Made by a program: the position numbers and the translations under genes. DNA of 52,743 bases, taken from a virus. Location: positions 1-52,743 of the IMG/VR virus record IMGVR_UViG_3300036828_000508; one strand, written 5' to 3'. The number at the start of each line of letters is the position of its first letter. Position 1 is the first letter of the stretch. Under the pieces are notes generated by a model. It ran no database searches, was not told where the DNA came from, and saw nothing but the letters and a program-made list of their open reading frames with translations. Shown one piece after another: positions 3,034 through 37,124 of this stretch.

Positions 3034-3242
3034 CCAAACGCCTCCCAAATCCTTCCCAAACCCTAAAAACCCCAATAAATCGGCCTAAACTGGCGCTTTA
3101 TCTTCTTTCGCCGCAAGAGATAATCTCTAGCAGAACCGAGTAGGTTACAGCAGAAGCCCTTGCGCCATGCGGGTTTCTCCCTTACGTTCGGGCTAGCGAA
3201 ACCGGGCGTCGGGGCCTCCCAGCCTCCCAAACGCCTCCCAAA
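3034..3242 (+). repeat. Direct repeats upstream of integrase (possible arm sites / attP region)
   Basis: The 16-mer CCAAACGCCTCCCAAA occurs exactly at 3034-3049 and 3227-3242, and partial copies (CTTCCCAAA, CCTCCCA) lie beside each. The 177 bp between them, from 3050, are gene-free and contain no clear tRNA end. Repeats flanking a gap next to a tyrosine integrase gene are typical of integrase arm-binding sites around attP. The core site itself cannot be picked without the host attB. Confidence 0.45.
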
Positions 3243-3258
3243 AATGGAGCTGATCTCT

Positions 3259-4506
3259 ATGCGTGCCCCGCTGCCGCTCACCGTTAGATCAATCGAAGGG
3301 CTCGACCTGCTGCCCGAGGAACGCGACGCCTGGATATGGGACTCCGACAGCGGCCAGCGCTCGGGCCTCGGCCTGCGGCTGCGCCGGGGCAAAGCCGGCG
3401 TTTCCAAAACCTTCTATGCGGCCTATCGCTTTGGCGGCCAGGATCGCCGCGATCCGATCGGCGACGTCTCAGCCTATACGCTGGCCGACGCCCGTCACCG
3501 TGCCTACGAGCACCGCCGCGCCGCGGCCGACGGCAACGATCCGCGCGAGGCCAAGGCGGCCAAGGTTCGCAATGCGATCAAGGCCTCGGGCTGCCCGATC
3601 TTTGCCGACTACACGACACACTATTTGGCGCGGCGCAAAGGCGACCTGCGGCCGAATACCTTTCACTGCCGCACGCGCTATCTGACGCTCGAATACTGTG
3701 CGCCGCTCCACAAGCTGCGGCTCGACCAAATCGACAAGGCCATGATCGCCAGTCGATTGAACTTCCTCGAAGACACCGGCATTGCCAAGGCGAGCGTCAA
3801 TGTCGCCAAATGCGTTCGCATTGCCCTGATCGATTTGTTCAAACTCGCGACCTCCGAGGGCCTCATCGAAATCAATCCAGCGCAGGGTACTCCGCAGCGC
3901 CCCGCGCCCGAGCCTCGCAAGCGAACATTGAGTGACGTCGAACTCGCCGCGCTGTGGAACGCGACCGGCGACGACGGCGAGTTTTCCAAGATCGTGCGCT
4001 TGCTGATCTTGCTCGGTGCCCGTCGTAACGAGATCGGCGGTATGGCCTGGTCGGAATTCGACGGCCTTGGCAATTGGACGCTGCCCGAGCATCGCAGCAA
4101 AACCGGCAACGAGCTACGGCTGCCGCTGTCGCCCGCTGCGCGCGAGATTATCAATTCGATTGAACGACGCGACCGCCGCGATTGCCTGTTTGGCGGCAGC
4201 AACGGCTTTTCGCAGTGGAGTGGCGCCAAAAAGAAGCTCGATGCGCGGCTGCCGCTCGTCAAAAGTTGGACGCTGCACGATCTGCGCCGATCGATGATCA
4301 CGAGCATGCACGAACTCAACATCGAGCCGCATATCATCCGGGCGATCGTCAATCATTCGCGCGGCGATGACGTTCACGGCAAGCATTACAACCATGCGAC
4401 TTACATGCCGCAGAAGGCGACCGCGTTGCAGCGCTGGGCCGACCATGTTCAGGCCCTTGCCGATGGTAAGCCCTCCAACGTCGTGCCACTGAGGCCCGTG
4501 GCATGA
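3259..4506 (+). CDS. int: Tyrosine recombinase / phage integrase
   Basis: A 415-residue site-specific recombinase. The start at 3259 is chosen because GGAG at 3246-3249 lies nine bases ahead, although the frame is open to 3160. The N-terminal third is an arm-binding/DUF4102-like region (about residues 1-100), then a SAM-like core-binding domain, then the catalytic domain. The active-site set is complete: R255 (GARRNEIGG), K281 (RSKTG), H340 and R343 (LHDLRRS), H366 (VNHSRG) and Y377 (GKHYNHATY). It would integrate the phage into the host chromosome, which makes the phage temperate. The next small gene overlaps its stop (ATGA). Confidence 0.95.
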   Translation: MRAPLPLTVRSIEGLDLLPEERDAWIWDSDSGQRSGLGLRLRRGKAGVSKTFYAAYRFGGQDRRDPIGDVSAYTLADARHRAYEHRRAAADGNDPREAKAAKVRNAIKASGCPIFADYTTHYLARRKGDLRPNTFHCRTRYLTLEYCAPLHKLRLDQIDKAMIASRLNFLEDTGIAKASVNVAKCVRIALIDLFKLATSEGLIEINPAQGTPQRPAPEPRKRTLSDVELAALWNATGDDGEFSKIVRLLILLGARRNEIGGMAWSEFDGLGNWTLPEHRSKTGNELRLPLSPAAREIINSIERRDRRDCLFGGSNGFSQWSGAKKKLDARLPLVKSWTLHDLRRSMITSMHELNIEPHIIRAIVNHSRGDDVHGKHYNHATYMPQKATALQRWADHVQALADGKPSNVVPLRPVA

Positions 4507-25137: not shown

Positions 25138-25191
25138 TGCCATTCCATTGCCAGGCTTTGCATTGCTTGCCTCGCCGAGCCGCGCCACTCC
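25138..25191 (+). repeat. Single unit of the pentanucleotide array
   Basis: TGCC followed by ten 5-mers (attcc attgc caggc tttgc, then attgc ttgcc tcgcc gagcc, then gcgcc actcc). It follows exactly the grammar of the large array at 6379-8160 and ends at the same type of boundary word. It is thus one complete 54-base unit, in the same plus-strand orientation, placed upstream of the protease-capsid gene. Confidence 0.8.
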
Positions 25192-25232
25192 TTCAACAAC
25201 CCGAAGCCTATCGGACCGACGAAGGTAAAGCC

Positions 25233-27698
25233 ATGCTAAAATTAAAAGAATACGCAGACCCAGGCTATCAAAGTGACGGCAAAAAGCGGTTTCCGCTCGA
25301 TGATGCAAATTGGGTTCGGCGCTCTTGGGCGCGGCTGGTTCAAATCGGTGACAAATATACCGATGAGCAAAAGCGGCGCATTGCCATCCGGATCACTGCG
25401 GCTTGGAAGGACAAGATCGAATCGGCCGGGCCGCCGGCGCTCGACGACAAGGCCGCGATGGAGATTGTTCAGCGCGAGTCGTTGTTAATCATCAAAGCCG
25501 AGGCGCCGGACCCGGACGATGACGAGTCCCACGATGACTACATCGAACGCTGCATCGACGAGATGACGTCGGACGACGACGACCTCGCCGACGACCAGGC
25601 CGAGGAAGCGTGCCAACTCAATTGGGAAGAATACGACGATCGCGGCGCCGGCTTGATAATGCACAAGACGCGTACGACGCCCGCCGGTGGCATGGTATTT
25701 GTTTTGTCCGATGCAACGCCCGATCGCTTCGGCGACATCATCGAGGTGTCATCCTGGGACACCGAGAACTTTCAAAAAAATCCCATCGCGTTATTCAACC
25801 ATGACAAAAGTTTTGTGATCGGGAAATGGGCCAATCTGAAAAACGACGACAAGGATCTGCGCGGCGAGCTGGTGCTGGCGCCGAAAGGCACGTCGCCGCG
25901 CATCGATGAAATTCGCCGGCTGATCGAAGCCGACATCCTGCGCGCCGTCTCGGTCGGCTTTCGCCCGGTCGAGACCGAGCCGATCAACGCCAAGGATCAG
26001 TGGGCTGGCACCCGCTATCTCAAAAGCGAGCTGGTGGAGACCAGCGTGGTCGCGGTGCCGGCAAATCCGAATTGTTTGGCAATCGCTCGGAGCTTGAACA
26101 TTTCACCTGCAACTGTCCGCTTGGTTTTTGGCGAGCATGCCAACGAGAAAGTCATGCGGCGGAATTACGACGCGAACCGAGGCGAGGATGCCAATACGCG
26201 GCGCGCGGCGAAGACTGGCGAGGATGCCGACGACAACAGGAAAGCTACCAACGGCGAGCATGCCGAAACACATCGTAGTACGACGAGGGGAAACCCCATG
26301 TTGCTTTCGCAACGCATTCAGGAAGCCCAAAAGCGCGTCATCGCGCTGCAGGACAATCTCGACAAACATCTCGAAGGTATCGACGACGAAAGCCCGAGCG
26401 AAGAGCAGATGGTGCTGACCGAGGATCTGACCAGCAAGATCCAGACGGCAACGCGCCATCATGACAGCCTGGTCGCCATCGAAACCAAGAACGGTGCTCG
26501 CGCCGTCGACGCCGGCGATGCCGGTAAGACCGGCAGGAGCCTGATCAAAGCCCCGGCTGATCTGATCATCCGCAGCAAGAAAAAGGCCGACGTTCTCGAC
26601 CTTTTTGTGCGGGCAATAATCGTCGGCACCAAGGCGCGTATCGATGGCACCCCCATTGACGACATGCGCCGCAAAATTTACGGCGACGACGAGGCGCAGC
26701 GCGTGGTTTGCGATTACGTTCTCAAGGCAGCCTCGGCGCCCGCCATGACCACGGTGGCCGGATGGGCCGCCGAGCTCGTGCAAACGATCTGGCCGCAGTT
26801 CATGGAAGCGTTGCTGCCCTCGAGCGTATATCCCAAGCTCGAGGCAATGGGTCTCGCGCTGACGTTCGGCGCCGCCGGCCGCATCATCATCCCGACTCGT
26901 AATCTGACGCCCGCGGTGTCCGGCAGCTTCGTCGGTGAAGGTTTGCCGATCCCGGTGCGCCAGACTGCATTCGCCAGTCAAGCGCTTACGCCAAAAAAAA
27001 TGGCAGTAATCACGGTTTGGACAAAGGAAATGGCAGACCACAGCATCCCAGCGATCGAAGGCCTGTTGCGGCAAGCGGTGCTCGAGGATACCGCGATAGC
27101 ACTCGACACCGTTTTGCTCGACAACAATCCGGCGACTGCGATCCGGCCGCCCGGCCTGCGGTCCTATCAAGCGGGTCTCACCGCCTCGACGGCGACGCCG
27201 GGTTACACCGCCTTTGTCGCCGATTACCGGGCACTCTATGGCGCGTTGCTTGGCCTCACCAACGGCAACGTGCGCAAACCGGCAATTCTGCTCAATCCGA
27301 CGCAGACCATGGATCTGAGCACCCTACAACCGCCTGCTGCGGCAGCACCGCTATGGCCGTTGTCGGAGATGGTCAACGCTGGCCGTATCGGCAAAGCCGC
27401 GCTGATTGAATCGGCAACAGTACCGGCGGGCATGGCGATCATGGTCGATGCCGCCGACTTTACCTCGGTCGGTTCTGAAGGAATGCGCATGGACATCAGC
27501 GACCAGGCGACAATTCACCTGGAAGATACCAGTCCGCAGGACATCGTGTCCGGCCCGAGCGGCACGCCGGTCCCTGCGACGCCAGTCAAATCCATGTGGC
27601 AAACAGACTCGCTCGCTTTACGGATGATAGCGCCAATCAATTGGATCATGCGTCGCCCAGTGGTCGCATGGATGACCGGCACGGCGTGGGGCACGTAG
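25233..27698 (+). CDS. Prohead protease - major capsid protein fusion (HK97-like)
   Basis: An 821-residue polyprotein. Residues 1-65 are a small DUF6582-like helical domain. Residues about 150-285 are a U35/S78 prohead protease (FNHDKS with H190, RAVSVGF with S240, LVETSVVAVP with E269). A linker with a 12-residue repeat (GEDA/GEHA) follows, then from about 356 a capsid protein with a helical delta-like region and the HK97 fold. An internal ATG at 26298 (M356) has GAGGGG seven bases ahead, so free capsid protein could also be made. The start at 25233 has AAGG eight bases ahead. In most phages these are two genes, so the fusion is notable. Confidence 0.9.
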   Translation: MLKLKEYADPGYQSDGKKRFPLDDANWVRRSWARLVQIGDKYTDEQKRRIAIRITAAWKDKIESAGPPALDDKAAMEIVQRESLLIIKAEAPDPDDDESHDDYIERCIDEMTSDDDDLADDQAEEACQLNWEEYDDRGAGLIMHKTRTTPAGGMVFVLSDATPDRFGDIIEVSSWDTENFQKNPIALFNHDKSFVIGKWANLKNDDKDLRGELVLAPKGTSPRIDEIRRLIEADILRAVSVGFRPVETEPINAKDQWAGTRYLKSELVETSVVAVPANPNCLAIARSLNISPATVRLVFGEHANEKVMRRNYDANRGEDANTRRAAKTGEDADDNRKATNGEHAETHRSTTRGNPMLLSQRIQEAQKRVIALQDNLDKHLEGIDDESPSEEQMVLTEDLTSKIQTATRHHDSLVAIETKNGARAVDAGDAGKTGRSLIKAPADLIIRSKKKADVLDLFVRAIIVGTKARIDGTPIDDMRRKIYGDDEAQRVVCDYVLKAASAPAMTTVAGWAAELVQTIWPQFMEALLPSSVYPKLEAMGLALTFGAAGRIIIPTRNLTPAVSGSFVGEGLPIPVRQTAFASQALTPKKMAVITVWTKEMADHSIPAIEGLLRQAVLEDTAIALDTVLLDNNPATAIRPPGLRSYQAGLTASTATPGYTAFVADYRALYGALLGLTNGNVRKPAILLNPTQTMDLSTLQPPAAAAPLWPLSEMVNAGRIGKAALIESATVPAGMAIMVDAADFTSVGSEGMRMDISDQATIHLEDTSPQDIVSGPSGTPVPATPVKSMWQTDSLALRMIAPINWIMRRPVVAWMTGTAWGT

Positions 27699-34146: not shown

Positions 34147-34202
34147 ATGCCGATATCTTTTGCGGCGATTCCCTCTTCAATTAAAGTTCCGCTGTATTGG
34201 GT
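34147..34202 (+). CDS. Tail sheath protein, exon 1
   Basis: The first 56 bases of the sheath gene. AGGAG lies eight bases before the ATG, and the frame encodes MPISFAAIPSSIKVPLYW followed by the first two bases of a Val codon. Mu-type tail sheaths start in this way (MPI.F..IP...R.P). Without splicing the frame ends at TGA 34207-34210 region after 20 codons. With the intron removed (34203-34462) it continues V-E-V-D-P-S-M into exon 2. The junction GGGT|TTTT gives the U at the exon end that group I introns need. Confidence 0.8.
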
Positions 34203-34462
34203 TTTTTGAGGCCCCTTTGCCGAGCAATCGGCATCGAATAAATCCGGGTGAATTCAGGGAACAGCCAGACCGGCCAATCCTGAGCCAAGCCGCGCAAGCG
34301 GACAGGTGCAACGACTAGAGCGAAAGCTCGTAGGGCCAAGCGGCCCGAAGCGCCCGGCCCCTCACAAACGAGGGTGATGATATAGTCTGCTCTGCATAGG
34401 AATATGCAGCTGTCCCGCAAAGGGACGACGACGAGCCTCGCGACCTCGTTGTGAACATAAGG
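34203..34462 (+). ncRNA. Group I self-splicing intron in the tail sheath gene
   Basis: About 260 bases with all core elements: P AATTCAGGGAA (34251-34261), Q AATCCTGAGCC (34276-34286), R GTGCAACGACTAGAG (34306-34320) and S GATATAGTC (34379-34387). P pairs with Q (TCAGG/CCTGA) as P4. R pairs with S (GACTA/TAGTC) as P7. Hairpins CCGC-GCAA-GCGG (34290-34301) and GAGC-GAAA-GCTC (34318-34329) suit P6 and P8-type stems. The 5' exon GGGU pairs with GCCC at about 34211-34214 (P1). The last base is G (34462). It has no endonuclease gene inside. Ends are inferred from reading frame and P1. Confidence 0.9.
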
Positions 34463-35999
34463 TGAGGTCGACCCCTCGATGGCTGGTTTGCCGTCGATCA
34501 ATCTGCGCGCACTTCTCGTTGGTGTGATGAGCACTACCGAGGGCAGCGCGACGGTTGATGTGCCGGTGCCGATCGGCTCGCAAGCGCAGGCCGATTCCAA
34601 TTTTGGCGTCGGCTCGGAATTGAGCCGGATGTTCACTCGATTCTATTCCAATAATTTCGCGAATGAAGTGTGGGGCCTCGGCGTTTCGCCCGGCGGCACT
34701 GCATCGGCGGCGACCGGCACCATCACCGTCACGGCGGCGCCGACGGCTCCCGGCACGTTATGGCTTTACGTTGCCGGCCAGCTGGTCAGCGGCATCAATA
34801 TCTTTACCACCGACACGGTACCCGACATCGCGACCTCGATCGCCGATGCGATCAATGGCGCCTATGCCAGTGGCGATCCGGCGTTGCCGGTCAGTGCCGT
34901 TGCTGCGGCCGGCGTCGTGACGCTGACGGCGTTGTTTGATGGCGTCAACGGCAACGAGATCACGGTGTCGCTGAATTACCAGGGCGCACTTGGCGGTCAG
35001 ATCACGCCTCCCGGCCTCGGCATTACGTTGCCGACCGGTGGCTTGCTCAGCGGCGGCGTCGGCACGCCGGATTTCACCAACGCCATCGCCAACATCCAAA
35101 AGGAAGCGTTCGAATACGTCGCGATGCCGTACGCTGACGCCAATTCGCTGTTCGCTTGGGATCAGGAATTTGGCTTCACCGACACCGGCCGCTGGGGCTG
35201 GCAGCGCCAGCAGTTCGGCCATGTCTTTAGTGCCAAGCGCGGCATCTACTCCGACTTGATCCTGTTTGGCGATACACTTAACAGCGGGGTCGAGTCGATC
35301 ATGGCAATGGAGCAGACTTGTCCGTCGCCGATGTTCGAGGTCGCGGCCGCCTATACCGCCAAGGCGCAGCGCGCTTTGATCAACGATCCGGCGCGGCCGT
35401 TGCAGACCTTGTCGCTCAATGAAGTCAAGGCAGCGCCACTGCAGGACCGTTTCAACTTCGTCGAGATCAACAGCCTGGCATCGAACGGGCTGGCGATTCA
35501 GGAAGTCGGCAGCGATGGTCAGCCGATGATCATGCGGGAGCAAACGACTTATCAGCTCAATCTCTACGGCCAAACCGACGACGCCTATGAGCTGGTAACG
35601 ACGCTTGCGACCTTGGCCAAGCTGCTGCGCAATCAGCGCCAGGCCATCACCTCGAAATTCCCGCGCAGCAAGCTCGCCGACGACGGCACCAAGTTCGGGC
35701 CGGGGCAGGCGATCGTCACGCCCGGCATCATCAAGGCCGAGCTTGTCAACGAGTACCAGCTCGATATGTGGAACGGTCTTGTAGAGAACCTTAAAGAGTT
35801 CAAGGCTAATCTAATGGTCGAGCGCGACCCCAATGACCCCAATCGGGTCAACGTGCTCTATCCGCCCGACCTGATCAATCAGCTGCGGATCTTTGCCGTG
35901 CTGGCACAGTTCCGCTTGCAATACGATCGTGGCCTCGACACCGCGATCATCGGTGCAGCACCGCCTCCGTTCCAGGCGGCTGGTGGTACGCCGCAGTAA
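34463..35999 (+). CDS. Tail sheath protein, exon 2 (Mu gpL-like)
   Basis: The main part of the contractile sheath. After splicing, exon 1 and exon 2 give 530 residues, the usual sheath length. Exon 2 starts with the Val third base, then E-V-D-P-S-MAGLPSINLRALLVGVM. Sheath features include FRALLIG-like LRALLVG, a middle beta domain with repeated TLTA strands, and a C-terminal domain YQLDMWNGLVENLKEFKANL and NPNRVNVLYPPDLINQLRI. A start at the ATG 34479 alone would miss the conserved N-terminus. The sheath marks the phage as a myovirus. Confidence 0.92.
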
Positions 36000-36012: not shown

Positions 36013-36675
36013 CTAATCAACGCCGCGTCGTAACCGTTCGCGATAGCGTCGTTTGCGATCACGCATGCATTGTGGGCACGGCTTACCAAATGGTTTGACG
36101 TGCCCATGTGTGCAAACAGCCCGACTTGATGCGAGGCGAAGTTTTTGTTTGTGTGCTTCTGACTTCGGCTTGGAGTTAATACCAGAATGATCGTTAAGCG
36201 CTCGGGCTGCGCGCATTTTTGCAAACTTGTCGGCATACGTTTCAGGCGCTTCAGCAATCAGTCGCAATTGTGCTTGGCGTATTGCTTCACGGTGTTGCGG
36301 AGATTTTGGGCCTTTCCCTACGCCACTTTGTTTGACGGCTCGCGATATCTTGCGCTTCGTCTGTTCAGTGTGTCGTCGCCCGGCGCGGACGCCCACACCG
36401 CCCGCCATGCGATTCCAGCCGAGATTGGCTGTCGGGCGTAGCGACCGTTCGATTTCCAAGCATCGCACTATCGGTCCTTCGTAAAGAACTCGCACCGAAA
36501 AGGTCTTGGGCAGCTCACGCGCGGCACTGTTTCGTCTCTCTCGGTGTTGCTGAAGCCGCGCCTTCAGGTTCGTCGTGACGCCGATATAGCCGCTGTCTGT
36601 CGGATCGATACAGCGCGCGTCGAACAACCAATAGACCCAGCCTAATTCATCTGCCTGTGGTTGCATTGTGGGCAT
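36013..36675 (-). CDS. GIY-YIG homing endonuclease with NUMOD3 and zinc finger
   Basis: A 220-residue free-standing nuclease on the opposite strand, 13 bases after the sheath stop. Residues about 11-90 are the GIY-YIG domain: WVYWLFD, GYIGVTTNLKARLQQH and the catalytic Glu in CLEIERSLRP. Then come NUMOD3-like DNA-binding helices (HTEQTKRKISRAVKQSG, SPQHREAIRQAQLRL) and a C-terminal CTHGHVK..CPQCMRDRKRR finger. It would cut intronless or endonuclease-free alleles and start copying into them. The group I intron 1.5 kb upstream lacks its own endonuclease, so this gene may drive both. Start at 36675 follows AGGACAGGGC. Confidence 0.92.
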   Translation of the reverse strand: MPTMQPQADELGWVYWLFDARCIDPTDSGYIGVTTNLKARLQQHRERRNSAARELPKTFSVRVLYEGPIVRCLEIERSLRPTANLGWNRMAGGVGVRAGRRHTEQTKRKISRAVKQSGVGKGPKSPQHREAIRQAQLRLIAEAPETYADKFAKMRAARALNDHSGINSKPKSEAHKQKLRLASSRAVCTHGHVKPFGKPCPQCMRDRKRRYRERLRRGVD

Positions 36676-36755
36676 GCCCTGTCCTCGTGTTAACCATACA
36701 AAACAGCCAGATAATACGGGCACTTTCGCTATCTGTCAAAAATAGGAGATGGTAC

Positions 36756-37124
36756 ATGGCTCAGAGATTTGCCGGAATTGCTTTCTTGACGGTCGATGGA
36801 ACGCAATTGGCATTGCGTGGGAATTTCACCGTCTCACCATCAGTGGTTGAGCGTACGATGATAGCTGGACAGGATGGTGTCCATGGGTACCAGGAGCTGC
36901 CCAGGGTGCCGTTCATTGAAGGCGATCTGTCGGCGGTGCCTGGTTTGTTGCTCGACGATCTCGAGACGCAGACCGATGTCACCGTGGTGGCACAGCTCGC
37001 CAACGGTCTTCAGTACACATTGACTGGGGGCACCTGTAAGTGCGGCTTTGAAGAGAACACCCGCGACGGTCAATTGCGGGTGCGCTGGGAAGGCCTTGCC
37101 TGCCAGGAAATCTCGATTGGGTAA
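36756..37124 (+). CDS. Tail tube protein, Mu gpM-like
   Basis: A 122-residue protein with the conserved core of Mu-type tubes: GIAFLTVDGTQLALRGNFTV, then ERTMIAGQDGVHGYQE, VPFIEGDLS and the end LRVRWEGLACQEISIG. It would form the inner tube within the sheath. The ATG follows AGGAG by eight bases. The homing nuclease gene ends up between sheath and tube, otherwise adjacent in Mu-like tails. Confidence 0.92.
   Translation: MAQRFAGIAFLTVDGTQLALRGNFTVSPSVVERTMIAGQDGVHGYQELPRVPFIEGDLSAVPGLLLDDLETQTDVTVVAQLANGLQYTLTGGTCKCGFEENTRDGQLRVRWEGLACQEISIG

Follow-up and report, generated by a model that had tools for sequence, protein, structure and literature searches.

A predicted group I intron interrupts the tail sheath gene of a soil phage at an insertion hot spot for related introns

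The stretch of DNA analysed here (the window) comprises 52,743 bases and makes up one virus record, an IMG/VR phage contig from a soil phage. The genes found around its tail sheath gene, encoding terminase, portal, tail tube and baseplate proteins, identify a contractile-tailed phage. The sheath gene lies on the plus strand in two pieces. Exon 1 (34147-34202, 56 nt) contains codons 1-18 and two bases of codon 19, and it matched the N-terminus (MPISF..IP..IKVPLYWVE) of about 100 uninterrupted sheath homologues. Exon 2 (34463-35999, 1537 nt) supplies the last base of codon 19 and all that follows, up to residue 530 and the stop codon, and its product matched PHROG 165 tail sheath (E=1e-138) and the Pfam families Phage_sheath_1 and Phage_sheath_1C. 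The tail tube gene (36657-37124, plus strand; Pfam PF10618 Tail_tube, E=5e-28) was listed as a mechanical ORF from GTG 36657; its conserved part starts near residue 34 (about 36756), the point from which most relatives matched. Between the sheath and tube genes, on the minus strand, we found a free-standing homing endonuclease gene (36013-36723, 236 aa from a GTG) with GIY-YIG and NUMOD3 domains (PF01541, E=7.8e-5; PF07460, E=3.6e-4; both above the gathering cut-offs), and at its 5′ end this gene overlaps the first part of the tube ORF as listed. A PDB search with this endonuclease gave no match. Elsewhere in the window, an 846-aa ORF (25158-27698) matched head maturation protease families as well as those of major head proteins and is likely a protease-capsid fusion.

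When the two exons were joined, they formed 1593 nt, that is, 531 codons encoding 530 aa with no internal stops. The first-pass annotation had proposed precisely this arrangement, with a 56-base first exon, a total exon length divisible by three and a 530-residue sheath whose conserved N-terminus is recovered once 34203-34462 is removed, and it agrees with the joined sequence IKVPLYWVEVDPS, which was unbroken in about 100 intron-free homologues. Its warning that a gene start at 34479 would miss both the intron and the true N-terminus was also well founded, as a simple ORF caller reported exactly 34479-35999 (506 aa) instead of the full sheath. A protein scan retrieved 80 viral loci and 7 Bradyrhizobium genome loci with sheath homologues, and the N-terminus (MPISFANIPANIKVPLYWVEVDPSMAG) was contiguous in all but one of the readable loci. 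A second scan with a more distant sheath query added further intron-free loci and three intron-bearing sheaths, L207 (the same as L100), L216 and L231 (the same as L111). Compared with close relatives, the joined ORF was under strong purifying selection (pS about 0.6-0.71, pN 0.14-0.17) and its first 24 codons showed the same pattern as the rest, which is good evidence that the joined product is used. In contrast, the unspliced mRNA meets an in-frame TGA at 34207-34209, inside the intron, and its translation would end after 20 codons (MPISFAAIPSSIKVPLYWVF, then stop); production of full-length sheath would therefore require splicing.

The 260-nt segment between the exons (34203-34462, plus strand) carries no ORF and is very probably a group I intron whose splicing restores the sheath. 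The covariance search that had been suggested as a check returned RF00028 as the only Rfam match across the window (34194-34409, plus strand; E=1.1e-20, 86.3 bits where the gathering score is 50), covering the full model (1-253/253). This match, the intron-free homologues and an intron at the same nucleotide in a relative (L045/L104, see below) agree with the group I identity first proposed from the letters alone. From the model match, covariation and a single-sequence fold we assigned helices P1, P2, P3-P9, P7.1, P7.2, P9.1 and P9.2, among them the P4 (UCAGG/CCUGA) and P7 (GACUA/UAGUC) pairings, which were as previously described. The minimum-free-energy fold of 34185-34480 recovered P1-P6, P6a, P7.1, P7.2, P8, P9, P9.1 and P9.2 (z=-2.9); P7 is a pseudoknot, outside the reach of this type of prediction. 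In the predicted P1 (34199-34214), exon bases GGGU (34199-34202) pair with the guide GCCC (34211-34214), placing a U34202.G34211 wobble at the 5′ splice site, and the helix is extended by U34203.G34210 and U34204-A34209. The splice sites thus obey the group I rules, with a last exon base U in a U.G wobble and a last intron base G (G34462), a terminal G being present in all nine introns compared at sites A and B of the sheath gene (see below). The window P1 consists of a 4-bp core and this weak extension, its guide leaving two exon bases further upstream unpaired, as compared with 7 bp in the same-site intron of L111.

The structure was also examined across relatives. In 19 aligned introns, our hand-written structure had 93.5% of cells paired, compared with 84.4% in column shuffles and 29-43% when the structure was slid. 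Changes on both sides occurred in 36 of 61 pairs, against 19.9 expected from shuffles, and in 118 cells against 36.9. All six core helices showed such two-sided changes and were paired in most cells (P3, 97.7%; P4, P5 and P6, 100% each; P7, 98.9%; P8, 87.8%), while P6a was paired in only 33% owing to a fault of the alignment, which placed it badly. A covariance model that we built from these 19 phage introns (R1) scored phage introns at 76-247 bits and the window intron at 219.8 bits (34239-34462); training-set introns, including the window's own row, match by construction. No match was obtained in the intron-free sheath genes scanned with R1.

Phage group IA introns such as those of T4 td, nrdB and nrdD have a catalytic core with P7.1/P7.2 and P9.1/P9.2 extensions. 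The hairpins P7.1 and P7.2, located between P7 and P3 in our introns, had compensatory changes in 3/4 and 3/5 pairs, and from their presence we provisionally place the window intron in subgroup IA (IA2-like). It shares with the T4 and Twort group IA introns the core plus extensions, the location in a protein-coding phage gene and a stop codon soon after the 5′ splice site, and the Twort orf142 intron likewise interrupts a tail gene, that of the tail tube (PMC11878797). Unlike them, it lies in a tail sheath gene, is only 260 nt long, contains no ORF and follows a very short first exon (56 nt). Among isolated phages, the introns of Salmonella phage Vi06 and Escherichia phage PhAPEC7 are among its nearest sequence relatives (70-84% identity over 58-68% of the window intron, including the core). 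These T7-like and N4-like introns lie in or beside DNA polymerase genes and are often split by an HNH endonuclease ORF, whereas the window intron occupies a structural gene and is ORF-less. Our literature search, whose partial coverage makes it weak evidence, found no report of a group I intron in a tail-sheath gene, though other late genes are known to carry introns, as Twort orf142 does.

Related introns were found at the same nucleotide and close to it. The contig of L045 (also retrieved as L104) carries a 238-nt group I intron (72.1 bits) at the identical nucleotide. At this position, after nt 56 of the coding sequence (site A), intron lengths were 260 nt in the window, 238 in L104, 251 in L111, 232 in L137 and 704 in L100, and these four relatives all presented a 56-nt exon 1, an intron ending in G and an in-frame stop at an early position. 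Six further introns (L099, L139, L145, L146, L150 and L216) were inserted nine nucleotides upstream, after nt 47 (site B), two after nt 49 (L144 and L130) and one after nt 42 (L128), the nt 49 and nt 42 junctions being placed by hand from the reading frame and the terminal G. In every site-A and site-B intron the unspliced frame is closed by a stop no more than a few codons past the splice site, and early stops of this kind have been seen as a means to keep ribosomes off the folding ribozyme (PMC3984707). With related introns at four sites within 15 nt, the IKVPLYWVE segment is, on the sequence evidence, an insertion hot spot, and this is what the present analysis newly adds. The target is conserved: 12-residue windows starting at residues 13-16 ranked 28-46 of 519, and intron site E falls in one of the most conserved sheath windows. 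Exact duplicates at the site had been removed, close relatives remaining and several loci coming from the same sampling projects; the intron-bearing loci came partly from core-sequence scans directed at the intron, so that their frequency is inflated.

The family extends beyond the start of the sheath gene. Within the sheath, introns were found at residue 264 in L150 and near residue 390 in L114, and the tail-tube genes of L150 and L099 were also interrupted, while L128 had a second intron upstream of its tail-tube match. Taken over the adjacent sheath and tube genes, three members were present in or around these genes in L150 and two each in L099 and L128. In another soil phage group (L096-L098, L101, L103, L105-L107, L110 and L112), a single major head protein gene (PHROG 267) has two intron sites, and the group I introns there are related and separated by about 800 bp. 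One more group I intron, a more distant one (75.9 bits), was present in L107 and L110. In several relatives, gaps near residues 209 and 41 were considered as introns and rejected, as those examined were open in frame with no group I signal; the sheaths of L034, L064, L045 and L145 have in-frame protein insertions near residue 41 or 209, without stops. Five contigs matched GTNCCNCTNTAYTGGGTTT, the pattern of the exon-intron boundary, and no sheath gene was present in any of them.

In addition to introns, endonuclease genes were found around this segment. GIY-YIG genes related to that of the window lie upstream or downstream of the sheath gene in intron-bearing L145, L137, L139 and L130 and in intron-free L024, L074, L220, L227, L032, L057/L083, L235, L006 and L062. 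Such a flanking gene accompanied 5 of 14 distinct sheaths with an intron and 9 of 91 without one (Fisher p=0.02, post hoc), a modest association that is no more than suggestive because flank lengths differ and the relatives are not independent. L001 is a shorter copy of the window locus, whose span does not reach the endonuclease gene. Among viral contigs, a near-identical endonuclease locus was found only in the contig of L024, where an endonuclease gene 88% identical to that of the window occupies the same place beside an intron-free sheath. L024 was also the only sheath of the set in which codon 19 is not GTN (TGG ATC). In L145, where the endonuclease is 71% identical to that of the window, the segment is split by the site-B intron. 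Although single cases, both fit an endonuclease target at or near codons 16-19. Against such a target, an ordinary site is retained in other intron-free relatives whose flanking endonuclease genes are more diverged. The intron-free sheath of L220 is flanked on both sides by GIY-YIG/NUMOD3 genes (958-1770 and 3518-4228), and the sequence WVVYWLYDETC before the sheath start of L128 (immediately upstream of 2155) resembles the N-terminus of the flanking GIY-YIG proteins and is a possible remnant.

In contrast to the window intron, some relatives' introns carry an endonuclease ORF of their own. The site-A intron of L100 encodes a 147-aa ORF (3198-3641) with a LAGLIDADG-like motif (Pfam below the cut-off), matching PHROG 5046, named HNH endonuclease (E=2e-10); the motif, LAGIVDGKSS, is without the usual acidic residue and the protein may be inactive. 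The site-B intron of L216 (1816-2472) contains an HNH/EndoVII-like ORF, identified by eye. Two different kinds of intron-borne endonuclease ORF are therefore present at neighbouring sheath sites.

As regards the origin of the window copy, its identity was 84-85% to the head-gene introns at one site and 81% at the other head site; a site-B intron was 82% identical to it, and the remaining site-A introns reached only 72-78%. By eye, its P2 hairpin (TTTGCCGAGCAATCGGCATCGAA) resembles those of the head-gene introns, and the other site-A introns are without P2. Both the identity pattern and the P2 difference suggest that this nucleotide was reached by two or more sublineages. In a tree of 19 intron cores most deep branches were weakly supported, too weakly to settle direction; a head-gene-type origin is hence suggested by the 84-85% identity and the shared P2, not by the tree. 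A tentative and rather doubtful extension of these data is that, in this lineage of soil phages, introns land repeatedly at the start of the sheath gene: separate intron sublineages would have reached four positions in a 15-nt stretch through the action of several families of endonuclease (free-standing GIY-YIG/NUMOD3 enzymes together with intron-borne LAGLIDADG-like and HNH ones), and the window copy would derive from a major-head-gene-type intron with its guide changed to fit the sheath. Bradyrhizobium introns were also considered as a source. RF00028 introns were present in 35 of 265 Bradyrhizobium genomes (loci L156-L185, mostly about 180-200 nt), possibly in tRNA genes; their scores with the phage model did not exceed 23-49 bits, and no sheath gene was present in the Bradyrhizobium loci fetched with RF00028. 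They were rejected as the source and belong to a different family.

Altogether, every observation is accounted for by a mobile group I intron lodged in conserved coding sequence, and the window intron is a real but ordinary example of such presumably mobile elements. We infer that in vivo the transcript would fold into the ribozyme, which would use guanosine to cut after U34202 and would then join the exons at U34463, yielding normal sheath; the stop two codons into the intron would halt ribosomes ahead of the ribozyme core. The intron would persist as a mobile parasite, lodged where the sequence of an essential late gene is strongly conserved. In collaborative homing, a free-standing endonuclease and an ORF-less intron share the same target (PMC3984707). 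The window resembles such systems in having an ORF-less intron and a nearby free-standing endonuclease gene in the same late region, but its enzyme is of the GIY-YIG/NUMOD3 type and is encoded antisense to the structural genes. This antisense enzyme may cut intron-free sheath alleles at or near the segment, driving both genes in, a step whose likelihood we place a little short of even.

A regulatory role for the intron was also contemplated, in which splicing efficiency, through GTP level, growth state or translation, would time sheath production and late assembly. In T4, intron splicing reportedly depends on both translation and growth state, and a phage-intron 'molecular switch' has been proposed (PMC11878797). 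The first-pass annotation had suggested such control of late assembly on the grounds that the sheath depends on splicing; the dependence stands, given that the early stop makes full-length sheath impossible from unspliced mRNA, while the control does not follow, given that most relatives are intron-free with an uninterrupted gene. An assembly-control role is possible but unsupported because related phages do without the intron. Moreover, introns at several nucleotides and in other genes, together with the internal endonucleases of two relatives, point to selfish mobility, and the sequence gives no sign of regulation. Introns that are sporadic, occupy several nucleotides and other genes and in some cases carry endonuclease ORFs are expected of mobile parasites, not of a conserved regulatory device, and we consider timing by splicing improbable.

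Even less probable is a degenerate, non-splicing group I intron, with production of only a 506-residue sheath from ATG 34479 or a defective phage. This start is preceded by GAGG and opens a long ORF, and the P1 of the window is weak beside those of its same-site relatives. However, every core helix is intact, the intron ends in G, purifying selection acts on the joined exons, the first 24 codons among them, and the N-terminal residues that such a product would lose are among the conserved parts of the sheath. The internal Met itself is replaced by K, Q, R or H in relatives, which also ruled out the 34479 start as a deliberate short isoform. Finally, a genetic disruption or assembly artefact, conceivable for a single contig, is next to impossible in view of the Rfam E value of 1e-20, the covariation and the same-site introns of L045/L104, L111, L137 and L100, independent contigs from other samples that refute it in practice.

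The intron in the sheath gene also bears on where phage introns reside. A recent survey asks why they sit almost only in genes of nucleotide and DNA metabolism (PMC11878797). The phage lineage described here repeatedly has introns in late structural genes, those of the sheath, the tube and the major head protein, which argues against a purely metabolic 'switch' explanation. Gene callers will shorten such sheaths, as they would by starting that of the window at 34479. Across this lineage, the sites with and without endonucleases form a natural set for comparing insertion, loss and the capture of endonucleases.
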